Source: a virus. Taken from it: 21,120 bases of DNA. Within the stretch, counting starts at the first letter, position 1. Each line of letters opens with the position of its first letter. The DNA lies in the IMG/VR virus record IMGVR_UViG_3300045973_000522, positions 1 to 21,120 of that record. One strand, given 5' to 3'. Position numbers and translations under genes: made by a program. Below are positions 1 through 20,633 of this stretch, piece by piece. A model generated the notes under the pieces. That model was not told the DNA's origin, did no database searches, and was given only the letters and a program-made list of their open reading frames with translations.

Positions 1-504
1 TATCACACCAGATAGGTTTGGCATATTCGTAACATTACCCGCCGTTAAACCAGCCGCCGTACCATTACAGTTAGTCAAATTACCACTAACAGGCGTACCC
101 AGCGCAGCATTAACCAGTGTGATATTAGTCAGCGTAGAACCATTAGCAAACACAATAGAACCGCTGCCTGTTTTATCACTAATCCATACCGCTAATTGAC
201 TTGAATTAACACCGTTAGCAGTTAGTGTAGTTGTACCTGTAGCATTGCCTGTTATCACACCAGATAGGTTTGGCATATTCGTAACATTACCCGCCGTTAA
301 ACCAGCCGCCGTACCATTACAGTTAGTCAAATTACCACTAACAGGCGTACCCAGCGCAGCATTAACCAGTGTGATATTATTCAGCGTAGAACCATTAGCA
401 AACACAATAGAACCGCTGCCTGTTTTATCACTAATCCATACCGCTAATTGAGTTGAATTAGTACCGTTAGGAGTTAGTGTAGTTGTACCTGTAGCATTGC
501 CTGT
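1..504 (-). repeat. 252-bp tandem repeat inside the fibre gene
   Basis: Positions 1-252 and 253-504 are two copies of the same 252-bp unit (84 codons, in frame), differing at 5 bases. The unit begins again at 505-522 and then diverges into the N-terminal segment. The array may continue beyond the left edge. The five base differences change four amino acids (Pro/Ala, Thr/Val, Thr/Ser, Asn/Thr); none is silent. Confidence 0.95.
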
Positions 505-636
505 TATCACACCAGATAGGTTATTTTTTGATTGCAATGCCTCAATTTCATTTTTAACAATAACAAAATTATCGCGTACAGATTGAGTCGTTGGATTACC
601 CGCAACGGGGACAGAGATATTAATAAAAGAAGTCAT
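1..636 (-). CDS. Tail fibre protein, N-terminal part (3' end outside window)
   Basis: The reading frame starts at the ATG at 636 (MTSFINISVPVAGNPTTQSV) and stays open for 212 codons to the left edge, so the C-terminus is missing. The first 38 residues look like the N-terminal attachment segment common to many phage fibres (pattern PTTQSVRDNF..NEIEALQ). From residue 39 the protein is made of 84-residue repeats rich in Gly, Thr and Asn, with the motif ALGTPVSGNLTNC seen in repetitive tail fibre proteins. Two nearly identical repeats fit in the window and a further one has begun at the edge. It starts 2 bp after the stop codon of the J-like tail-tip gene, which fits a fibre mounted on the tail tip and used for host binding. 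The receptor-binding end is not visible. Family call is by motif only. Confidence 0.8.
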   Translation of the reverse strand, partial: MTSFINISVPVAGNPTTQSVRDNFVIVKNEIEALQSKNNLSGVITGNATGTTTLTPNGTNSTQLAVWISDKTGSGSIVFANGSTLNNITLVNAALGTPVSGNLTNCNGTAAGLTAGNVTNMPNLSGVITGNATGTTTLTANGVNSSQLAVWISDKTGSGSIVFANGSTLTNITLVNAALGTPVSGNLTNCNGTAAGLTAGNVTNMPNLSGVI

Positions 637-3867: not shown

Positions 3868-4454
3868 AACTTATTCGCCAAACAGCCTTTGAACTTAATC
3901 TCGCCACAGTCATACAACCTATCGGCAAACTGGTTATATTCCAAAGAATCTTCCAAAAAAACACAGCGGTAATAACAAGAGCCAGACCAGGACACAACAT
4001 CATCAGGCGTGAAAACTATACTAACCAAACCCGTAGAACTAACCGTATAATCAAATAGATAATCCAACGCACCTAAGCCAACGATAGATACAACAGGAGC
4101 TACAGCGACATTATTAACAAGCTCGTCAGCCGCATAGGTTGATTTAATCAACTGAAAATTATTTGATCCACTAACAGCATAAATTGGCTGATTAACAACA
4201 ACGCAATCCTCGTCCTGATACAAAAAACTATCAAAGCCGCCTTTTCTGGCTAAAAAGAACCCAATCAACAAATCCTTATCAGCCTTAGTCAGCCACTGAT
4301 TAGACAACGTGAACTCATAAACAGGCTGACTATACAAAGAAATCCGCACATCACGACCCGTCGGTGGTGAATGAGTAATCGTATTAAAGACAGGCTTCTT
4401 CTTACACTCCCAAGTAAAGCCATGTAACTGAGAAGGGAAAACTTCATTGCTCAT
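3864..4454 (-). CDS. Distal tail protein, DUF2460 family (GTA gp12-like)
   Basis: A 196-aa protein whose first half carries the pattern expected of the DUF2460/TIGR02217 family: WECKKKPVFNT, then SGR-like PPTGRDVRISLYSQPVYEF, followed by LIGFFLARKGGFDSFLYQDEDC. The family forms the distal tail ring (Dit-like) that joins the tail tube to the hub in gene transfer agents and related siphoviruses. It follows the tape measure gene by 11 bp and overlaps the DUF2163 gene by 4 bp, the standard order. Length is a little under the usual 200-210 aa. No sign of truncation. Confidence 0.85.
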   Translation of the reverse strand: MSNEVFPSQLHGFTWECKKKPVFNTITHSPPTGRDVRISLYSQPVYEFTLSNQWLTKADKDLLIGFFLARKGGFDSFLYQDEDCVVVNQPIYAVSGSNNFQLIKSTYAADELVNNVAVAPVVSIVGLGALDYLFDYTVSSTGLVSIVFTPDDVVSWSGSCYYRCVFLEDSLEYNQFADRLYDCGEIKFKGCLANKL

Positions 4455-9510: not shown

Positions 9511-9539
9511 ACGCCATTAACCATTAACTACTTATCTCG

Positions 9540-9582
9540 TTCCCACGCGCCGCGTGGGAATGCCGTTAGAGCGCGCCGCGCG
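9540..9582. repeat. REP-like palindromic element
   Basis: Positions 9540-9549 and 9551-9560 are perfect 10-bp inverted arms (TTCCCACGCG / CGCGTGGGAA) separated by one base. A second, smaller GC palindrome (CGCG..CGCG) follows at 9572-9582. The first resembles the 'cgttcccacgctccgcgtgggaa' repeat that I remember as dispersed in gammaproteobacterial genomes. It lies in the 138-bp gap between the major tail protein and chaperone genes and has no T-run typical of a terminator on the minus strand. Confidence 0.75.
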
Positions 9583-9613
9583 TTTCTGCTTAAATTTTTT
9601 CAGTCAAGTAATT

Positions 9614-9641
9614 GGAATCCAAAGCCTAGGCTTTGGACTCC
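9614..9641. repeat. 28-bp palindrome, copy 1
   Basis: GGAATCCAAAGCCTAGGCTTTGGACTCC-type sequence: an almost perfect 28-bp palindrome centred on CCTAGG, with one G-U compatible mismatch. It begins 7 bp past the stop codon of the major tail protein gene. A second copy (26 of 28 bases identical) lies at 20639-20666, in the same position relative to another stop codon. Confidence 0.85.
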
Positions 9642-9648
9642 GCATTCA

Positions 9649-10822: not shown

Positions 10823-11311
10823 TTATTTACTAAAGTTTCTTGAACCCATGCGGCTCAACTTAAATTGAATTTCAGTATTAAAAAACGGCGTAGTCGGTGG
10901 TAATTCTTGGAATACCGTAAAATCTGAACTAACAAAAAACGCCTCATGCTGACTATCCACTAAGGCTTGAATAATCGCCTCCGTCAATACACTGCTATTT
11001 TTTAAACCGCGAAACTCCACAAACTGGCTATGTCCAATGTCTTGATTCGCCAATTCCACGCCATTAACATCTAATGACTTAGTATCGTGAATGGTTAAAA
11101 CCAAACTCACTACACAGCCCTGATCATGCTGATTTAAACCATATTCAGCTTTAGGTGTGACATACGCAATAACAGGGCAATCATCAGCCTTGCCCGCTGT
11201 TTTATAGCCGAACAAATGCTTTAAGGTTTTGCCATATTCCGCACTTACCAAACTATTTAATGCACTGTCTGCACTTAAAATGTCATAAACCGCTGTTAAT
11301 GCTGCCTTCAT
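10823..11311 (-). CDS. Tail terminator-like protein (probable)
   Basis: A 162-aa protein with an alpha/beta layout: N-terminal helix (MKAALTAVYDILSADSALNSLV), a central strand with HDQGCVVSLVLTIHDTKSLDV, a helix (SVLTEAIIQALVDS), and closing strands ending in FNTEIQFKLSRMG. This order and length match minor tail U / tail terminator-type proteins that cap the tube and join it to the head. The position, after the connector and gp10-like genes and before the tube gene, agrees. It starts 1 bp after the preceding gene. Call is from position and fold pattern only. Confidence 0.55.
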   Translation of the reverse strand: MKAALTAVYDILSADSALNSLVSAEYGKTLKHLFGYKTAGKADDCPVIAYVTPKAEYGLNQHDQGCVVSLVLTIHDTKSLDVNGVELANQDIGHSQFVEFRGLKNSSVLTEAIIQALVDSQHEAFFVSSDFTVFQELPPTTPFFNTEIQFKLSRMGSRNFSK

Positions 11312-12117: not shown

Positions 12118-12125
12118 GCTGCACC

Positions 12126-12290
12126 TTATTCTTCAGTGGGGTTCTTGCTGGTTTTCTTGCTACCAGAATCAACAACTTCTTCCTGCACAACGACAGGTAA
12201 TTCAGTTGTCCAGCCTAAGCGTTCAATACATTCTTTCGCATCAACCGCTTCTTTTTCATGCTCTACGCCGTTTTCATCATAAATAATCAT
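12126..12290 (-). CDS. Small acidic hypothetical protein (54 aa)
   Basis: A short gene filling the gap between the cement protein and gp10-like genes. Reading from the ATG at 12290 gives MIIYDENGVEHEKEAVDAKE, continuing IERLGWTTELPVVV and an acidic/Lys-rich tail, ending with TAA at 12126-12128. It starts 2 bp after the cement gene stop and ends 8 bp before the next start, the same packing as the other late genes, which supports it being real. The Lys/Glu-rich end (SGSKKTSKNPTEE) looks disordered. No family recognised. Confidence 0.7.
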   Translation of the reverse strand: MIIYDENGVEHEKEAVDAKECIERLGWTTELPVVVQEEVVDSGSKKTSKNPTEE

Positions 12291-12292
12291 GA

Positions 12293-12718
12293 TCAATCAT
12301 CCTTCGCGATAAACGCTGAATAATTGATACCAGTAGCAATCGTGCCAGCCACCGTTGTATGCAAACGCACATAACGATACAACGTGCCAGCCTCTTCATT
12401 TCTAAACGGAATAACATAACGACCTGCTGCACTCAACGCGGCATCCATCGGGACAACTAAATTACCAAACACCTTGCGAGCCAAACACACCGAGCCGCTA
12501 TCCATTGCCGCCACGTTTGATGCTTCTAAGGACACCGTGTAGATTTCATCACCTGAAGCGATTTCACAGGCTGACAAATCAACGACCAAATAGCCATCCG
12601 CCAACCCATCACCTAAGTCTAAAATCGTTGCCCCATTCGTCGTTGCCGCTACTAAGCCAGCGGCTTTTAATGCCAGCGCGGCATCATAAGTAAAACTATT
12701 GCGATTAAGTCCCATCAT
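12293..12718 (-). CDS. Capsid cement (decoration) protein, Bbp16-like
   Basis: A 141-aa protein right after the major capsid gene. Its sequence (DAALALKAAGLVAATTNGATILDLGDG at 13-39, then DGYLVVDLSACEIASGDEIYTVSLEASN) and the ending on strands with LYRYVRLHTTVAGTIATGI match my memory of the Bbp16 family, trimeric cement proteins first seen on Bordetella phage BPP-1. It would bind the capsid exterior and stabilise it. The start MMG offers two ATGs one codon apart. The gene is 8 bp after the capsid gene. The family assignment needs a profile search, but the compact beta-sandwich pattern and position agree. Confidence 0.72.
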   Translation of the reverse strand: MMGLNRNSFTYDAALALKAAGLVAATTNGATILDLGDGLADGYLVVDLSACEIASGDEIYTVSLEASNVAAMDSGSVCLARKVFGNLVVPMDAALSAAGRYVIPFRNEEAGTLYRYVRLHTTVAGTIATGINYSAFIAKDD

Positions 12719-12726
12719 TCATCCCC

Positions 12727-13656
12727 TTATTTAGTCACAGCTGCATCAGCGATTGAATACAAGCGCGTCACCGCACGACCACTCATCACAGTCACACCGT
12801 TAAACCATTCCACACGAGTACGATATTTAGGTTCAGCTTGTAACTCACCTAAATCCTGCACGCGCATACCACCATTCTGAATACCCATTAACGCACCGTC
12901 ACCAATAGAAGCCACATACAACGAACTTGCCGTTGCAGTACCACTGGTTGCCGCTTCGTTAAAGCCTAAAATCTCGGTACCGTTATTGTCCAAATCCACC
13001 GTTAAAATCGGCAAACCGTTGTACATCATGATCTGCTGACCAAAGGCATCCGTTGTATAACTGATAAAACCGCCGATAGTGGTATCACGCGCCGCTACTG
13101 TTAAACGACGGCGCAAGGCTTTATTCATCAAAATATGCGTTGGGTTGAGCGTTTGGTCGATGGCTTCATCCAGCTTAGCCAACGACAATGCTGTACCATT
13201 CGCCGTGCTACCTGCCGCAATCAATTGATTACCGACAACCCGTTTTTGCAAACCGTCAAATTCTCGAGGATCAGCCGTTGAATCACCCTTAAAGAATTTC
13301 TTAGTCCACGCCAAACCTAAGGCGCGAATTTTCATACGCTCATGGGTACCGCGCACATCCGAACCAGGCATGGTTTGCACAATGAAGGTATCCACATCCA
13401 ATTCACCGCCTGCAATAACAAGACTTTCAGTTTGTGGATTTAAAATACCTGTTGATGGTGTATAGCTTTCATTGACACCGCGAAAGCCTACACCTGGCAT
13501 TCCAGATTCTTGATTGTATTTGTAAGCATTGCCCGCAATGTCTTCAAATGGCAATACCTGTAAAACACTGGAAGAACCCGCGTACATTTCAATCACGCCC
13601 GCGCGATACACATCGCCTGTTTCCAGCTTTGCCGCTTCAATTAAAGTTAAAGCCAT
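12727..13656 (-). CDS. Major capsid protein (HK97 fold)
   Basis: A 309-aa protein between scaffold-like and cement genes. Features: an N-arm (MALTLIEAAKLETGDVYRAGVIEMY), an E-loop-like region (KYNQESGMPGVGFRGVNESY at about 46-65), the spine/P-domain region around GTHERMKIRALGLAWTKKFFKGD, ILMNKALRRRLTVAAR, and a C-terminal A/P-domain part (YRTRVEWFNGVTVMSGRAVTRLYSI). Together these fit a short HK97-fold capsid without an N-terminal delta domain. No prohead protease gene is seen in the head block, so the protein is probably used uncleaved with the separate scaffold protein. It starts 3 bp after the scaffold gene. Confidence 0.85.
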   Translation of the reverse strand: MALTLIEAAKLETGDVYRAGVIEMYAGSSSVLQVLPFEDIAGNAYKYNQESGMPGVGFRGVNESYTPSTGILNPQTESLVIAGGELDVDTFIVQTMPGSDVRGTHERMKIRALGLAWTKKFFKGDSTADPREFDGLQKRVVGNQLIAAGSTANGTALSLAKLDEAIDQTLNPTHILMNKALRRRLTVAARDTTIGGFISYTTDAFGQQIMMYNGLPILTVDLDNNGTEILGFNEAATSGTATASSLYVASIGDGALMGIQNGGMRVQDLGELQAEPKYRTRVEWFNGVTVMSGRAVTRLYSIADAAVTK

Positions 13657-13659
13657 GGT

Positions 13660-14277
13660 TTATGCTCCTTTTTGGCTACGTCCATGCGCCATTTTTTGCG
13701 CTGGAGTCATTTTTGATACATCAACCGTTGTTTGTGTTGATTGTGAATGGGGCGTACCTGAACCCGTAGAACCCGTTGCTTTTGCCAGTGCGGGCTTATC
13801 TTTCAATAACGCTGCCACCGCATCTTTAACAGGCTTACCGTCAATCGTGACTACACCGTTATCATCCACCTTGGCTTTATCAACCAATAACGCATGAACC
13901 ACATCAGAATCAATGGCATCCGTTGAGGCTTGCAGTAAGGAGTTTTTAACCAAGGTGCTGTGAAATTGGCTTTTGAAATGATTCGCTTGTGCGGCATGAG
14001 TATCGGCAAGCTCTTGTAACTTACCTTGCTCTTTTAAACGATGCTGTTCCAGCTCATCAAAGGATTCAAAGCCCGTCGCTTTTTTCAAAGCCGCTTTGTG
14101 TTCCGCTTCTTTTTGAGCCAGTGCTTGAGCAATGGCGGCTTGAACATCCACCGTAGAACTTGTTTCAGGAGTTGCAGCAGCTTGTGAGCCGCCACCATCA
14201 CCTTCAATGATTGAAAACGCATAACCGATTGCTAACGTAAGCAATGGAAACGCGAAGAATGTTTTTTTACGAAACAT
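13660..14277 (-). CDS. Scaffold-like protein with N-terminal hydrophobic segment
   Basis: A 205-aa protein directly before the major capsid gene. Residues about 45-130 are charged and helical (AIAQALAQKEAEHKAALKKATG..LEQHRLKEQGKLQELADTHA), then a small domain (VDDNGVVTIDGKPVKDAVAALLKDKP), a Ser/Thr-rich linker and a basic end (PAQKMAHGRSQKGA). This is the layout of gp20-type scaffolding proteins, which bind capsid subunits by their C-terminus. Unusually, it begins MFRKKTFFAFPLLTLAIGYAFS, which reads as a signal or membrane anchor. No internal ATG offers a soluble start before residue 190; a GTG near residue 43 could. It opens the capsid block after a 242-bp gap. Confidence 0.65.
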   Translation of the reverse strand: MFRKKTFFAFPLLTLAIGYAFSIIEGDGGGSQAAATPETSSTVDVQAAIAQALAQKEAEHKAALKKATGFESFDELEQHRLKEQGKLQELADTHAAQANHFKSQFHSTLVKNSLLQASTDAIDSDVVHALLVDKAKVDDNGVVTIDGKPVKDAVAALLKDKPALAKATGSTGSGTPHSQSTQTTVDVSKMTPAQKMAHGRSQKGA

Positions 14278-14519
14278 GATTGACCTGCTATAGCTTGCTG
14301 TTGTGAAGCCATAGCATAAAAGCCAAGTAGGAAAAAAGATTGATTAGGACATTGAGCAATGTAACTAAGATTAGTGCTACTTATTCAATAGTAGGTCTTG
14401 CAGCACCCTAGGAATTGATTTTAAGGTATGTTTAACGGGTGTATAACGGGGGTAAAACAAAAAAGCAATACCAACTATGCTTAAGATAAAAAATCGCGCC
14501 TAAATCGCATTATTTAAAA
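14278..14519 (-). other. Intergenic gap before the capsid block
   Basis: The longest non-coding stretch of the window (242 bp). It holds no open frame worth reporting. On the minus strand a weak stem (AAGCA/TGCTT, 14463-14467 and 14478-14482) is followed by six T, and a mediocre promoter pair, TTGCTT (14463-14468) and TATACA (14440-14445) with 17-bp spacing, overlaps it. These suggest, without proving, a transcription boundary that could raise expression of scaffold and capsid genes. I find no copy of the Mor-type dyad here. Confidence 0.4.
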
Positions 14520-15746
14520 CTAACTCGACTTAGCATCTGCCAATGTGCTTAATATGTCCTGCTTACGCACTAAACCAAGCCCATCATCACGCAATAGTTT
14601 TTGCAATGGAATACCATCATCCAATGCAGCTTGCGCCCACTTGGGTAACAACTGCTGCCGTTGCTTGTCCGTCAATTTCGCTAAAAAACCACCATAGCTT
14701 TCACTGCCTTGTTCTTTTATAGCCGTCACGCGCGGAGTTAATCGACACATACAATGCGGATGCGCCTTGTGTCTTGGCACAGACTCCTTACGCCAAACAC
14801 CTTTACCTAAGCCTTGATCCACACTGGCATAATAATCGCAAATATCAAATATCTTATGGCTAGAAGATAAAGACCATTGATAACCGATAATATGCTCATT
14901 ATCTATCGTGCCGTCAATCACCGCTCTATGCGTAGCCGTTGCCATTTCTGTTCTGGCAATACGCTTTAAATTGTACAACTGCTTATCGTAAATCCACCAC
15001 TTCAAACTATTATCAACCAGCTCTAAGCGACCTTTATCAACAGCCGCTTTTAACTGATTAACCAACTGCAAAGAAGCGTGCTTAGTGCCAGTTTCCGCCA
15101 GCTTATCAACATAGCGTTCAGCTTTTTTCAGCGTCCTAGTCCATTGTGCTTGCGCTTGTGGATTATTGATTAACAACTTAGCAGAATCGGCTAACTCAGC
15201 CGTCCACTTATTACGATTATTGCTGATAACCGCAAACTTCTTAGCCCCATTAAGACTAACTTGCGCATCGGGCCCATCAAAAAAAATCGCGGCATTGTGT
15301 TCGATGTTGTATTGCAGATCATAGATAAGCTTGTTAATCGACTCACCTGTTTTAACGCCCTTAGTCAATACATCGCCCACACCGCTTTCCGTGGCGCGTT
15401 GCCAATTCCATAACCGTTGCGACAAAGTTAAATCATCATTCCAGCGTTCAACAAACGCCTGTTCAGCCAACGCCAACACCCGCCGACTACGCAAGCTGTT
15501 TCTAACTCGTACCTTTTCACCCAAGCCCAAAGCGGTAGAAACAACAATACCCTGACTAACCACGCCCTGCATAGCGGACAAATAAGCGGTTAATTCTGCT
15601 TTCGCCTGATCAGTAACCGCTTGCTTACCAGCGGGCAAGCTATCAACAAACCGCTGCACAAACGCCGCCGTATCATTGCCGATATTGCCTTCGACATTCA
15701 CCACTTCTTGAGCAAGCTGTTTGTAGAGTTCGTTGTAGTCAGTCAT
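14520..15746 (-). CDS. Minor head protein, SPP1 gp7 / Mu F-type
   Basis: A 408-aa protein after the portal gene. The C-terminal half has the phage head morphogenesis signature: RIARTEMATATHRAV followed by a cysteine/histidine cluster, FDICDYYA and later RHKAHPHCMCRLTP, which probably binds metal. Proteins of this family bind the portal and are packaged or mounted inside the procapsid. I chose the ATG at 15746 (MTDYNELYKQL). An upstream in-frame ATG at 15764 would add six residues but lies inside a perfect hairpin together with the portal stop codon, and neither start has a clear Shine-Dalgarno sequence. A 242-bp gap follows the gene. Confidence 0.82.
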   Translation of the reverse strand: MTDYNELYKQLAQEVVNVEGNIGNDTAAFVQRFVDSLPAGKQAVTDQAKAELTAYLSAMQGVVSQGIVVSTALGLGEKVRVRNSLRSRRVLALAEQAFVERWNDDLTLSQRLWNWQRATESGVGDVLTKGVKTGESINKLIYDLQYNIEHNAAIFFDGPDAQVSLNGAKKFAVISNNRNKWTAELADSAKLLINNPQAQAQWTRTLKKAERYVDKLAETGTKHASLQLVNQLKAAVDKGRLELVDNSLKWWIYDKQLYNLKRIARTEMATATHRAVIDGTIDNEHIIGYQWSLSSSHKIFDICDYYASVDQGLGKGVWRKESVPRHKAHPHCMCRLTPRVTAIKEQGSESYGGFLAKLTDKQRQQLLPKWAQAALDDGIPLQKLLRDDGLGLVRKQDILSTLADAKSS

Positions 15747-15752
15747 TTTAAA

Positions 15753-15787
15753 AACGGATAACATCCCTTTAAGGGATGTTATCCGTT
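15753..15787 (-). promoter_or_regulatory. Perfect hairpin over the portal stop codon
   Basis: Inverted arms of 16 bp (AACGGATAACATCCCT and its complement) with a 3-base loop. On the minus strand the stem is followed by a run of five T, so it has the shape of an intrinsic terminator. The portal stop (15779-15781) is in the first arm and a possible ATG for the next gene (15764) in the second. It may attenuate transcription, or be opened by ribosomes finishing the portal gene and so couple the two genes. Confidence 0.7.
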
Positions 15788-17107
15788 CACCTGCTGCGCA
15801 ACCCGATTACCGTACACATCACCATCCGCATCAATCTCTTCCTCGATTTTCGCCATAGTTTCACTATTAGTATCATTGCCTAATATATTTCTAGCCACGC
15901 GCTTTTTAATCTCTCGATCAAATTCACCGCCTAACTGCATATTCACTGCCGTCATAGCAACATCCAATGTCTTTGCTAAATCAATCAGATTAAAATTCTT
16001 GTTATAAATCACCGAGCCTTCATCAGCGGTTTTCTGATACCGTGCCACCAAGTCTTTAATTTCCATCTCAGCGCGGCGCGTTTCATTATTAATCGTGGTC
16101 ATCGCGGCATTGGCTTCTTCAAAATGAAATGCCAACGCTACTCCCGACGCTTGCACACCACCGACAAATTCCAAATTAGCAGATCGGTAAATATCCCCCA
16201 CCGTATCAGCGATATATTTCCGATATGATTCAATAGAATCAGGTGGTGGCGCGATAAAAGCAGGCACACCGCTATTAGCAGGGTTATAAACTAAGCCGTT
16301 TTGCGTACCAATGGTTAAATTGCTCAACGCCGCGCGGTCTTCTTTGCTAGAAGCAGGTAGCGTTAAAATGGCAAACGTCTGATCACGCAACAACGCCCGC
16401 AATTCCGAATGCAGATTAAACAAACTCCAATTCAATGCCGACAAATCCGAAAAAAATGACGTGGACTTAGAATCCATCAAACGCAATTTAGGCATCGCGT
16501 GTAACTGAATAATAGGCACACGACCCAAACCATGCTCACCCGAAGCAACGCCTACAAGGTCTTCACCCGCTGACAACGACCACGACGTTTCAGTAAAGGT
16601 ACGGTAGCGCGTTTCATTATTGATGGTTTCTGAAAACGTCACCGACTTCCATTGCCCAAAACTGTCTTTAGTTTCATTGGTTAATTGCGTATGAAACCGA
16701 ACAGTTAAATACGGCAATGTTTCATCAGCTTTGGAAGTGGCTTTAGTCGGTGATTTATCGACAATGATATACACCGTGCCTAAGATATTGGCTAAGCGTT
16801 GATAATTTGCCAGCACATTATCTAAATCCGTTCCAATGCCATCAGCATTTTTTAAAAACGCGCTATAAACGTCATTTAAACCCGTTCTATTCGGTGGTAC
16901 TTTCCACAAATAACCGCCATACACATCCACAATCTTGCGGCAATAATTTGGGTAAATTGCTAACTGCTTACGGCGCAAAAACTCATCATCTTGTTCACGG
17001 ACATGACGCACCAGATAATCACCCGTCTTAAAACCGCCACTGCCTTCATAAGAAGCCAATAGAAACTGATCACTGCTTTTATTGATTGGATTAACTTGGC
17101 TTACCAT
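15779..17107 (-). CDS. Portal protein (SPP1 gp6 / DUF4055-like)
   Basis: A 442-aa protein between large terminase and minor head genes, the fixed portal position. Readable features: RKQLAIYPNYCRKIVDVYGGYLWK near 45-70, DGIGTDLDNVLANYQRLANILGTVYIIVD at about 90-118, the charged helix-rich region after 225 (LNWSLFNLHSELRALLRDQTF), IADTVGDIYRSANLEFVGG near 305-323, ASGVALAFHFEEANAAM, and a helical end. This pattern fits DUF4055/SPP1-type portals rather than the DUF935 portal (gp29) expected next to a Mu-type terminase. It would form the dodecameric ring for DNA entry. The gene is separated from the terminase by 123 bp of hairpins. Its last codons form part of another hairpin. Confidence 0.8.
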   Translation of the reverse strand: MVSQVNPINKSSDQFLLASYEGSGGFKTGDYLVRHVREQDDEFLRRKQLAIYPNYCRKIVDVYGGYLWKVPPNRTGLNDVYSAFLKNADGIGTDLDNVLANYQRLANILGTVYIIVDKSPTKATSKADETLPYLTVRFHTQLTNETKDSFGQWKSVTFSETINNETRYRTFTETSWSLSAGEDLVGVASGEHGLGRVPIIQLHAMPKLRLMDSKSTSFFSDLSALNWSLFNLHSELRALLRDQTFAILTLPASSKEDRAALSNLTIGTQNGLVYNPANSGVPAFIAPPPDSIESYRKYIADTVGDIYRSANLEFVGGVQASGVALAFHFEEANAAMTTINNETRRAEMEIKDLVARYQKTADEGSVIYNKNFNLIDLAKTLDVAMTAVNMQLGGEFDREIKKRVARNILGNDTNSETMAKIEEEIDADGDVYGNRVAQQVNG

Positions 17108-17120
17108 TTCACACCATCAT

Positions 17121-17223
17121 CGTTCCAACGCTCCGTGTTGAACGCAAAAGAAGACGCTCCAGCGTCGTTATACACAACGCTTTAGCGTTGCAACCTTCAT
17201 GACAACACAGAGCATTGTCATGA
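17121..17223. repeat. Cluster of four hairpins between terminase and portal genes
   Basis: Four inverted repeats in a row: an imperfect one at 17122-17143; GACGCT/AGCGTC at 17153-17166; CAACGCT/AGCGTTG at 17175-17190; and a 9-bp stem TCATGACAA/TTGTCATGA at 17197-17223 with a 9-base loop. They resemble the dispersed 'cgctccagcgtcg' palindromes remembered from gammaproteobacterial genomes. No gene is encoded in this gap (17108-17230). They could protect the mRNA 3' end of the terminase, or mark an insertion or recombination joint. Confidence 0.75.
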
Positions 17224-17230
17224 TAAGAAA

Positions 17231-18802
17231 TCACCGCAACCCCTTAATCCGCACCGTCTCATAACTCTGTACATGACCTTCTGCCTGTGTAGCCACATAA
17301 GACATTAGCCCAGCAATCGCACTATCACCATGCCGAAAATCACCATCACAGCCTTTGATACGCTTATCGCTCATCGTTGGGCGACCATTCACTAAGGTCA
17401 CATTACGATGATCAGCAATCACATCTTCAGAACGACCGATTAAAAAAGAACGGTCTTCAAATACTTGCCGATAACGCGGAAAATGCTCGCTATAGAACAC
17501 CGCCGATATTTTGATACAGCTCACTTGAAAAGGGCTGATATTTGAATTTTGTAACGCACCTTCTGCATGACTTGCGCCATTGCCGCCCGCATCGAACGCA
17601 GCATGATGCAACAACGGTACATTTTCTAATAAGTAATCCCGAATCAATGCCTGAACATCAAAAGGAATTTGTCGTAATTCAACCGCTACTGCTTGCATCC
17701 AGCGATTAGCTTCACGCTCCTGCATTAACCAAATAACTGATAAATCGTTATGCCGTGCAAAGTCTTGACCATACACCGTTCTATGCCCTGTCATGTTATC
17801 AATGACAGGTTTTAACACATCAACAATCCACTGCTTGGCTTCTTGAATGCGCGTAGGGCAAGTGACCCATTCGGCAGGTTTAGACCACCGCACGACAGGC
17901 ACACCGTCAATCATGCACTGTTCAAGCAACAAGCGAGTGAAATATGCGCCACCGCCACGCTTGGGAATACAACCTAATTCTTCGTCCGCATCTTCCTTGT
18001 TGGGATAACTGGCATATTGAGCATCACGCCATTCTTGCTCGCCTTTGGCTGTCCATTTTTTGCCAGTCACTAAACAAATGCGTTTATAAAATCCTTCATA
18101 AATCGCTGTATTAAAATCAATATAATGGTAACCCCAAGGCAATTTACCAGCTTTAATGTCCTTGATTAACTCGTTAAAATCGTTGTCTTCGCCGTTGTGA
18201 GTAGAAACAATAGAAACACGACCACCCCACATCAAAAACGCCATTGCGCCTTTAATTACTTCATGCAAATTGCGATGGAATGCCGCCTCATCAATTCGTG
18301 CATGACCTTGCCGACCTCGCCAATTCCAAGGCGAAGACGATAGCGCCTCATAAATATGACCACTGGCGAAATTCAACCGAAAACGGGTAATATCTTGCTT
18401 AGTTTCACCAATCACCTCACGTTCTCGACTAATATCAATCGCTGAACACACCGACCCATAAGCACGGGCAAATAACAACGCATCACCGATATTCTCAGCC
18501 GCCATGCCTAAGTTATAGCCCATGTAATACTGATTCATACCATTGACAGCCGACGCTTCTAACGCGCCTTCAGCCGCAAAACATCCCCACGAAAACCCGA
18601 CACGGCGACATTTCTCAGCAGCGCGTACTGGAGATAAATCAGCATTCCACCGAATCTGACTAGGCATCAAAATTTTAGGGACTTCACTCAAGGGAATTTT
18701 ATGCGTGGCGCGCAAGGCTTGCTGTTCATCAATCAGTTCGTACAAGTCCTTTTTTTCACCTGCTGAAATTTCAACGGGTTCAACGCTCACTTGGCTAGAC
18801 AT
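17231..18802 (-). CDS. Terminase large subunit, Mu gp28-like
   Basis: This 523-aa protein is the DNA-packaging motor. Numbered from the upstream TTG at 18811, an ATPase P-loop variant lies at 66-75 (EKCRRVGFSW, as in the 'RRxGxSW' form of Mu gp28), Walker B at 171-177 (ARIDEAAF) and a coupling motif near 201-207 (IVSTHNG). The C-terminal RNase H-like nuclease has candidate metal-binding aspartates Asp350 (YGQDFARHND), Asp407 (AFDAGGNG) and Asp496 (RHGDSAIA). I prefer the ATG at 18802 (MSSQVSVEPVEI) over the TTG. The start overlaps the DUF3486 gene by 8 bp. The nuclease cuts DNA during headful packaging; in Mu-like phages this begins from integrated copies. Confidence 0.92.
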   Translation of the reverse strand: MSSQVSVEPVEISAGEKKDLYELIDEQQALRATHKIPLSEVPKILMPSQIRWNADLSPVRAAEKCRRVGFSWGCFAAEGALEASAVNGMNQYYMGYNLGMAAENIGDALLFARAYGSVCSAIDISREREVIGETKQDITRFRLNFASGHIYEALSSSPWNWRGRQGHARIDEAAFHRNLHEVIKGAMAFLMWGGRVSIVSTHNGEDNDFNELIKDIKAGKLPWGYHYIDFNTAIYEGFYKRICLVTGKKWTAKGEQEWRDAQYASYPNKEDADEELGCIPKRGGGAYFTRLLLEQCMIDGVPVVRWSKPAEWVTCPTRIQEAKQWIVDVLKPVIDNMTGHRTVYGQDFARHNDLSVIWLMQEREANRWMQAVAVELRQIPFDVQALIRDYLLENVPLLHHAAFDAGGNGASHAEGALQNSNISPFQVSCIKISAVFYSEHFPRYRQVFEDRSFLIGRSEDVIADHRNVTLVNGRPTMSDKRIKGCDGDFRHGDSAIAGLMSYVATQAEGHVQSYETVRIKGLR

Positions 18803-19346
18803 CGGTTTCAATGCCTAAGAAATTAGCACGGATTGCCGCCCAATCGCTGTCTGACAAACCTGCTTTTTTAACCGCACTGCCCAATTCTTCAGCCGCTTTA
18901 GCGCGTTCCTTATCGCGAATATCACGCTCAAATTGTTTCTGATTTAATGACGACTTAGCGATATTGTTCAGCGATAACGAGGCATCTTTTAACAGCTTCA
19001 AACGGTCTTGTGCATTCGTGGCTTCGTCTAAATCTTGCAAAGTCACCATGACATCAAACAATTCAGATTGAATCATCGCAATCACCGCCGCCGACCGCTG
19101 ATCAGCATCATCGGGGGCAGATTCAGCAATCATGCGCGCGCCTTGCGTGGCATCTTTCACTTTTTGCAAACGCTTCTTGAGCATCAAGCCACGATCAGCC
19201 ACCGACGTACGATTAATTTCTAAACCGCGCTCCGCTAACCACGCGGTAATGCCGCTATAGTCTTTAAAGTTGCGCCGTTCAATCTCCGCATCCATCGCGG
19301 CAATTTGCTCAAGCGTCCAATGATCAATAATGGCTTTAGCTGGCAT
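18795..19346 (-). CDS. DUF3486 family protein, Mu gp27-like (probable small terminase)
   Basis: A 183-aa protein with the DUF3486 pattern: a helix-turn-helix-like N-terminus (IDHWTLEQIAAMDAEIERRNFKDYSGITAWLAERGLEINRTSV), then helices and a basic, coiled-coil-like C-terminal part (LNQKQFERDIRDKERAKAAEELG). It lies between gp26-like and gp28-like genes exactly as in Mu, where gp27 is taken as the small terminase that selects DNA. It overlaps the next gene by 8 bp and shares one base with the previous stop (TAATG). Confidence 0.88.
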   Translation of the reverse strand: MPAKAIIDHWTLEQIAAMDAEIERRNFKDYSGITAWLAERGLEINRTSVADRGLMLKKRLQKVKDATQGARMIAESAPDDADQRSAAVIAMIQSELFDVMVTLQDLDEATNAQDRLKLLKDASLSLNNIAKSSLNQKQFERDIRDKERAKAAEELGSAVKKAGLSDSDWAAIRANFLGIETDV

Positions 19347-19633
19347 TACAATACAGGTCTAGCAATATGAGGGACACTAAGACGGTTTAATGCCACGTCT
19401 TCACCTTGAGCGGTCAGCTTAACCGTGACCACCTCGCCTGAATTTACCGTCACTAAGCCTTGGTCTTTTAACCAAGCCAACTGCTGATCTAAACGGTCGT
19501 GAGAAATAGGATTACCAATCGCATCCAAAGCTCGATACAACAACGGTACGCCCATTTGATAATCAGAATCTTCATTCAAAATCGTTAAAATATCGCGGCG
19601 AAACTGCTCATTCTGTAATTGAGTTAAGCTCAT
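19346..19633 (-). CDS. Mu gp26-like winged-helix protein
   Basis: A 95-aa protein that reads as a winged helix: helix (QLQNEQFRRDILTILNEDSD), QMGVPLLYRALDAIG, recognition-like helix (SHDRLDQQLAWLKDQGLV) and wing (VNSGEVVTVKLTAQGED). The position between DUF2730 and DUF3486 genes matches Mu gp26. Possible roles are DNA binding during packaging or regulation, neither shown. Overlaps the previous gene by 4 bp (ATGA) and the following by 1 bp. Confidence 0.82.
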   Translation of the reverse strand: MSLTQLQNEQFRRDILTILNEDSDYQMGVPLLYRALDAIGNPISHDRLDQQLAWLKDQGLVTVNSGEVVTVKLTAQGEDVALNRLSVPHIARPVL

Positions 19634-20007
19634 TTGCCGCCATCCCGATCTAAAGCGTGACGCTTTAAGTTTTCTAGGTCGTTGATAATGTGCTTATTGC
19701 TACCGATTAACTGCTGTAATAAGCCATTAGACGAATTAATTTCTTTGTAAATTTTCTCAAGTTCCAAAGTATTTTTTTCATTCATTTTATGAAGGTCTTG
19801 ATTAGATGGAACGTGTAGCACGAATTCTTCCAAGCGTATAACACGCTTATCCAAACTGCTAATACCTTTAGTCGCATGATTATCAATGCGTTCAATGCTG
19901 CTAATCGTGGCAGATTGTTTTCTATACAGAAATTGTTGAATACCAATTAAGGCAATGAAGAGTGTTTGAGCAACGTCAAACCAGAATTTGTAAGCGATAT
20001 AATCCAT
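19630..20007 (-). CDS. DUF2730 family membrane protein, Mu gp25-like
   Basis: A 125-aa protein with one N-terminal membrane helix (about 8-27, FWFDVAQTLFIALIGIQQFL) then a basic KQS stretch and a long coiled coil (about 35-118). This is the DUF2730 (Mu gp25) layout; function in Mu is unknown, with an envelope or lysis-related role possible. It is the first gene of the late operon. The start ATG at 20007 has a good ribosome site, AAAGGA, 7 bases before it. That site is the 3' arm of a hairpin whose 5' arm overlaps the predicted late promoter. Confidence 0.82.
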   Translation of the reverse strand: MDYIAYKFWFDVAQTLFIALIGIQQFLYRKQSATISSIERIDNHATKGISSLDKRVIRLEEFVLHVPSNQDLHKMNEKNTLELEKIYKEINSSNGLLQQLIGSNKHIINDLENLKRHALDRDGGK

Positions 20008-20011
20008 GACA

Positions 20012-20048
20012 GTCCTTTAGATGCGTTTTTAGCGCATTATAAAGGACA
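20012..20048 (-). promoter_or_regulatory. Hairpin hiding the ribosome site of the first late gene
   Basis: On the minus strand GTCCTTTA (20048-20041) pairs with TAAAGGAC (20019-20012), and inside these ATGCG pairs with CGCAT, with a small bulge and a 7-base loop. The 3' arm contains the AAAGGA ribosome site of the DUF2730 gene. The 5' arm lies upstream of the start site predicted for the late promoter, so only transcripts reading through from mor would contain the full hairpin. Confidence 0.6.
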
Positions 20049-20081
20049 GAAAAATTAACCGATTGATAAGTAACTTTATCA
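20029..20081 (-). promoter_or_regulatory. Predicted Mor-activated late promoter
   Basis: The -10 is TATAAT (minus strand, 20041-20036), with the start site predicted near 20029. There is no recognisable -35. Upstream is a perfect dyad, TGATAA-N6-TTATCA (20081-20064), centred at 20072.5, that is about -43.5. In phage Mu the Mor protein activates the middle promoter Pm by binding a dyad centred at this distance, and Pm also lacks a -35. The activator gene is immediately upstream. The promoter would drive the DUF2730-to-fibre operon. Confidence 0.65.
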
Positions 20082-20084
20082 TAT

Positions 20085-20114
20085 CCCCCCTTTGAAAAAG
20101 GGGGGCTAGGGGGG
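20085..20114. repeat. C6/G6 hairpin repeat
   Basis: CCCCCCTTT (20085-20093) and AAAGGGGGG (20097-20105) form a 9-bp stem with a GAA loop, followed by CTA and another G6 (20109-20114). It starts two bases beyond the mor stop codon on the minus strand. Sequences of this type (repeated C6 blocks with TAG and TTTTTCAAA) are remembered as dispersed in several bacterial genomes. A T-run is absent, so it is not a classical terminator, although the stem is strong. Confidence 0.75.
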
Positions 20115-20116
20115 AT

Positions 20117-20548
20117 TTACAACGACAGCCAATCCATTTGCTTACATTGAACAGTATTGTGCAGATACTCCTGCTTTTCAATACGCCGTAACGCCATACT
20201 CACACCTACTTCTGACAAGCGATATTTTCTAGCAACCTCAGACAGCGTTAAACCCGTGCGTTTATCAGCCAAAATAGCACTATCACGGACAAAGTTTAAC
20301 GCTTTAATACACTGTGGACAGTAAAAAACACTGCCACCATAGACATAACACAGCTTAGTAAGCTCATCCAAGCCAATTAACAAGCTCAAAGGATGATCAG
20401 CATCGGGGGTTTTAGGGACAATCACGCGCGTACCGCGATACGCTTGAATCAATGCCAGCACACTGGCAATAGACAAGGTATTCAGCAACTCTTTAATGCT
20501 ATCAGGAAGGTATTCAATCGGGAGGGGGGAATCATCATAATGCGCCAT
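20117..20548 (-). CDS. mor: Mor/C-type transcription activator of late genes
   Basis: A 143-aa DNA-binding protein of the Mor family. Visible parts are the N-terminal dimer region (SIKELLNTLSIASVLALIQAYRGTRVIVPK), the Gly-Gly strand (YVYGGSVFYCP) expected in the linker, and a helix-turn-helix at about 101-124 (LTLSEVARKYRLSEVGVSMALRRIEK in the longer numbering 117-141). Mor and C of Mu activate middle and late promoters; here one protein sits just ahead of the late operon and probably does both jobs. The ATG at 20548 (MAHYDDSPLP) is preferred; an upstream TTG at 20596 adds 16 odd residues and overlaps the promoter. The start has no good ribosome site. A CPQC cysteine pair (residues 77 and 80) is unusual. 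Confidence 0.88.
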   Translation of the reverse strand: MAHYDDSPLPIEYLPDSIKELLNTLSIASVLALIQAYRGTRVIVPKTPDADHPLSLLIGLDELTKLCYVYGGSVFYCPQCIKALNFVRDSAILADKRTGLTLSEVARKYRLSEVGVSMALRRIEKQEYLHNTVQCKQMDWLSL

Positions 20549-20581: not shown

Positions 20582-20611
20582 ATTATAGCAAAGCAAAAAA
20601 AGACCTGTCAG
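20582..20611 (-). promoter_or_regulatory. Sigma70-type promoter for mor
   Basis: CTGACA (20611-20606, five of six consensus bases) and TATAAT (20587-20582, perfect) with an 18-bp spacer, giving a start near 20575 and a leader of about 27 bases to the ATG at 20548. The -35 lies in the 3' arm of the terminator that ends the upstream unit. No activator would be needed. Confidence 0.7.
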
Positions 20612-20633
20612 GTTTTGAAAACCTGACAGGTCT
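20595..20633 (-). terminator. Strong intrinsic terminator
   Basis: A perfect 15-bp stem (AGACCTGTCAGGTTT at 20601-20615 with its complement at 20619-20633) with a TGA loop. On the minus strand it is followed by six more T (20600-20595). It should end transcription of the small genes to the right. The plus strand has no T-run after the stem, so the direction is clear. Confidence 0.88.

Follow-up and report, generated by a model that had tools for sequence, protein, structure and literature searches.

The middle promoter Pm of phage Mu is activated through a Mor element, a 16-bp dyad (5-bp arms around a 6-bp spacer) that is centred at −43.5 in a promoter with no −35 box (PMC4390567). Two of the late promoters of Mu, Plys and PI, located near the lysis and gp25 genes and near the head scaffold gene, are served by one protein, C (PMC4461284). 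In phage T4, the longer RNAs of gene e, soc, 49 and I-TevI fold so as to conceal the ribosome-binding site, and the late promoter falls within the DNA that encodes the 5′ strand of the fold (PMC3014915). Transposable phages with one annotated Mor-family gene are already known: in KS10 (Burkholderia), RR1-B (Rhizobium) and their relatives, such a gene stands ahead of the late region, and the literature searched contains no description of a pair of late boxes for these phages. Here we analyze an entire 21,120-bp IMG/VR fragment (the window), from which the early region is absent and in which all features discussed, except where a strand is not given, lie on the minus strand. The P1 site of this phage is probably one of two late promoters that are switched on by a single Mor/C-family activator. 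The analysis is one of sequence comparison, and dimer binding, activation and transcript starts are extrapolated from Mu.

Read along the minus strand, the stop codon of the Mor-family gene is followed by a C-rich/G-rich repeat, the perfect dyad TGATAA-AGTTAC-TTATCA (TGATAAAGTTACTTATCA, 20081..20064), 22 bases, a TATAAT −10 box (20041..20036) and the ATG of the first late gene at 20007. The dyad centre (20072.5) lies 43.5 bp from the predicted start at 20029, a figure that presumes a start 7 nt past the −10 box; the letters, coordinates and spacing are as described in the initial annotation. That annotation also reported no −35 box and, in agreement, a sigma-70 scan returned no site at the P1 −10, no −35 box was found 16–18 bp from it, and the hexamer at the 17-bp spacing is AATCGG. 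Thus, both features of a Mor-dependent promoter, namely a dyad with a 6-bp spacer at −43.5 from the (predicted) start and a −10 without a −35, are present at P1, and the resemblance to Mu Pm extends to the location beside the activator gene and to the TAA-N6-TTA core. However, the distance from the dyad centre to the first base of the −10 box is 31.5 bp at P1, one more than the 30.5 bp of Pm, and the window sites would drive late packaging and capsid operons, whereas Pm drives a middle operon.

The P1 operon opens with a 125-aa, DUF2730-like gene in the gp25 position (19630..20007), the L036 homologue of which passes the DUF2730 cut-off, followed by a gene in the gp26 position (19346..19633; phrog_436), a small terminase subunit of the Mu Gp27 family (18795..19346; E 1.3e-30), and the large terminase subunit (17231..18811). 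Because the gp25-, gp26- and gp27-like genes and the terminase stand in the Mu gp25-26-27-28 order, the operon is partly Mu-like, and its earlier characterization as non-Mu-like, with head genes unrelated to those of Mu, is not supported; only the portal (15779..17107; phrog_145, E 4e-43), the head scaffold protein (13660..14277; phrog_206, E 5e-11) and the major capsid protein (12727..13656; phrog_212, E 3e-82) belong to other families. A head morphogenesis protein similar to Mu gpF (14520..15764) is encoded between the portal and scaffold genes. The first ORF of the window (1–636), perhaps a tail fibre gene, contains long near-identical repeats (such as NLSGVITGNATGTTTLT) and is truncated where the contig ends.

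A scan of the operon strand with the eight positions common to the P1 sites of the window and its close relatives yielded two full matches each for the window and the L002 contig. For the window, as for L015 (located on the L002 contig), the second match has the same spacing and falls in the gap before the scaffold gene, the first gene after this P2 site. In the window, the candidate box TGCTCAATG-TCCTAATCA (14341..14358, centre 14349.5) precedes a TATGCT −10 box (14313..14318), with the start predicted at 14306. The two boxes of L015 are the top-scoring dyads of 15.5 kb. By dyad score alone, the window P2 is weak, ranking 11th, so that its tentative assignment draws on position, spacing and homology to the strong P2 box of L015. 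Convincing boxes were not found in the other window gaps (17108–17230, 12118–12292 and 9511–9648). A block resembling CCCCCGTTAAACCCGCGTTAAA is present upstream of P2 in three phages (window 14430–14455, L015 ~11161–11190, L027 ~12565–12600). The earlier reading of P1 as a Mor-type promoter with a single activator can be retained, but it missed both the box before the scaffold gene and a hairpin over the −10.

The 5′ arm of this P1 hairpin (20012..20047; −14.7 kcal/mol, z −4.4) lies on the −10 box and its 3′ arm on the Shine-Dalgarno sequence of the first late gene, whereas RNA from the predicted start would lack the hairpin. In all four close relatives, the hairpin extends from within the −10 to the Shine-Dalgarno sequence of the first gene; across the four phages, it aligns without gaps, 31 of the 32 outer-stem cells pair, and four of the eight outer pairs are changed on both sides. 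The P2 hairpin (14286..14316; −14.5 kcal/mol, z −3.0) follows the same plan in the window and L015, overlapping the −10 and reaching the Shine-Dalgarno sequence, although masking of the latter at the window P2 is only partial (0.60). Stems of at least 8 bp overlap the −10 in 9 of 16 promoters, compared to 12.7% of other intergenic −10-like hexamers; three of the 16 have no hairpin. A role as a shared operator was set aside given that the P1 and P2 hairpins differ in sequence. We consider the chances roughly even that the hairpin hides the ribosome-binding site when RNA reads through from upstream and that RNA started at the promoter lacks the hairpin. This stays a proposal because the hairpin of L036 and L037 resembles a terminator, with a 16-bp stem followed by CTTTTTT. 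That the hairpin mainly terminates read-through from the activator gene, rather than masking translation, is a somewhat less probable but serious alternative, in line also with the overlap of Mu Pm with a terminator-like hairpin; against it, there is no T run after the hairpin in the window or L002, and the P1 and P2 hairpins, different as they are, both reach the ribosome-binding site. If the masking interpretation is right, the arrangement recalls the T4 leaders, except that T4 employs its own late sigma factor, whereas the window promoters are expected to rely on a Mor-type activator and host sigma-70. The 5′ arm predicted at Mu Pm ends one base before the +1 deduced from published coordinates. 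It is conceivable, if somewhat doubtful, that across transposable phages, including Mu Pm, Mor-type promoters join an activator box to a hairpin running from the −10 over the ribosome-binding site or start codon, such that one activator would gate both transcription and translation. In the P1 regions of L027 (3914–3926), L028 (4384–4397), L032 (1469–1483) and L013 (4351–4363), an ATG comes 6–8 nt after the −10, which sometimes forms a hairpin loop; the late RNA may be nearly leaderless.

The putative activator gene (20117..20548, ATG at 20548) encodes 143 aa and matches PF08765 (E 2.8e-9; 37.4 bits against a cut-off of 24.9) and phrog_836 (E 1.7e-24), annotated as 'late transcriptional activator'. 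Its profile matches the Mu Mor structure 1rr7 (E 6e-4), and the protein aligns with Mu Mor over 80 aa at an identity of only 26%; a fold search with the monomer model (pLDDT 81) gave no significant match. The initial annotation placed the only activator gene of the window directly upstream of P1; the location stands, but "only in the window" carries little weight without relatives because the early region is missing from the fragment. Relatives were reached via the terminase, searches with the activator alone having returned none, and the activators of L002, L036 and L037 are 55–58% identical to that of the window. Each related contig that has any Mor-family gene has one, compared to two in Mu, which fits a single activator; the suggestion that one Mor-like protein may replace the Mor-then-C cascade is supported by this comparison, the window itself being incomplete. 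A Mu-type transposase was found in the relatives G312 and G318 as well as in Mu, but not in five other contigs.

Immediately ahead of the activator gene (20582–20633), a near-consensus sigma-70 promoter (11/12) and a strong terminator-like hairpin overlap, and in L002, L036 and L037 a terminator and then TATAAT likewise precede the activator gene, so that the activator, unlike Mu mor, may have a promoter of its own. The C-rich/G-rich repeat AAATCCCCCCTAGCCCCCCTTTTTCAAAGGGGGGA (20083–20119) begins at the activator stop; L013, a Methylobacter contig, has a similar repeat after its mor-like gene (4259–4295), and the element could be a mobile repeat of host type. In L042, the last ~40 codons of a Mor-family gene recur as a second copy farther downstream (1404–1941, 2406–2562).

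An inverted repeat by itself names no binding protein, and the missing early region would hold other regulators, so that the dyad might instead be the operator of a repressor, or of some activator outside the Mor family. We regard this as unlikely given the Mor geometry of the site, the TAA-N6-TTA core that it has in common with the known Mor site, and the Mor-family gene that directly precedes P1 in each of the four close relatives. The boxes of five canonical-Mor loci have the same core, as in Mu Pm. On comparative grounds, the P1 dyad is likely an activator site.

The hexamer dyad TGATAA-N6-TTATCA has a single exact match in the window, but look-alikes with up to two mismatches are commoner than in shuffled sequences (8 compared to 1.4) and mostly lie within coding regions, which makes the dyad weak evidence when taken by itself. 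In an ungapped alignment anchored on the −10, L002 (TGCTGAACC-CCTTCAACA), L036 (TGCTGAACC-TTTCCATCA) and L037 (TGCTGAACC-TTTCCCGCA) can be set against the window (TGATAAAGT-TACTTATCA), and all four P1 dyads stand 31.5 bp from TATGAT or TATAAT. These three relatives lose the exact motif yet keep a diverged dyad at the same distance; the loss of the dyad in close relatives that keep mor, which the initial annotation had named as evidence against its reading, is thus not observed. Across all viral contigs, motif matches are mainly in coding DNA, and only the contigs of L037 and L002 have a Mor-family gene too, with two matches in L002 alone. In 311 Methylococcales genomes, the motif scan gave two matches, both in coding DNA, and, by eye, most Mor-domain genes in Methylococcales genomes have no comparable promoter directly downstream.

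In other related phages, a sequence-blind scan (intergenic dyads with at least 5 of 7 pairs, −10 at 30–32 bp) detected boxes ahead of endolysin or amidase genes in L013, L020, L022, L027 and L033, and ahead of head-protease genes in L028 and L032. When partner boxes were sought by TAA-N6-TTA and by second copies of each box, two identical 18-bp boxes emerged in L033, a pair differing by one base in L028, and two similar boxes each in L032 and L027; a second box was not found in the L017, L020 and L022 DNA examined. In total, five related phages (L015, L027, L028, L032 and L033) carry two boxes, at the positions of Mu Plys and PI, and canonical-Mor relatives, too, seem to use Mor-type boxes at these positions. 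The window likewise has a pair at such positions, putatively served by one protein, but with boxes in the Mor rather than the C layout, and with no separate Mor step seen in the relatives. In a comparison of six phages, pairing each P1 with the P2 of its own phage gave the best fit (87 identities, the best of 720 pairings). Dyads with at least 6 pairs are most numerous at 31 bp among the 46 spacings tested (7 sites), a modest result given the 6 sites at 23 bp and the 5 at 37 bp; several −10 boxes in the family match just 3–4 of 6 positions. Part of the scan design derived from the P1 sites that the scans then supported, and the phages share ancestry. In known phages with distant homologues (TJ1, B23, YPCBV-1, RR1-B and EBPR siphovirus 4), the AT-rich −10 rule detected no box between genes, and the GC-rich single-Mor phages gave none by this rule. 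It is highly improbable that the dyad arose by chance as an inverted repeat of AT-rich DNA next to an ordinary or inactive TATAAT, with the likeness to Pm fitted post hoc. Imperfect look-alikes are frequent in the window, and dyads with at least 6 of 7 outer pairs occur at 0.24% of positions, but in all four close relatives the 65 bp upstream of the −10 contain a single dyad with 5 or more pairs, which stands at 31.5 bp, and phages carry matched pairs at equivalent genes.

Taken together, these observations are best explained by a model in which a dimer of the 143-aa activator would bind the P1 dyad at about −43.5, stand in for the missing −35 and recruit host sigma-70 RNA polymerase to TATAAT. 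Transcription from P1 would then start the gp25-26-27-terminase-portal operon, and P2, which precedes the scaffold and capsid genes, would respond to the same activator. Less certainly, the hairpin may mask the ribosome-binding site in read-through RNA, so that the late genes would be locked twice.

For phages with a single Mor/C-family protein, this model outlines a concrete two-promoter late regulon, the sites of which are readable from sequence. The matching of boxes within a phage suggests that the activator and its sites changed together, which makes these phages a natural set for the study of DNA recognition by Mor. If the hairpin works as proposed, read-through RNA would be kept from making late proteins too early.
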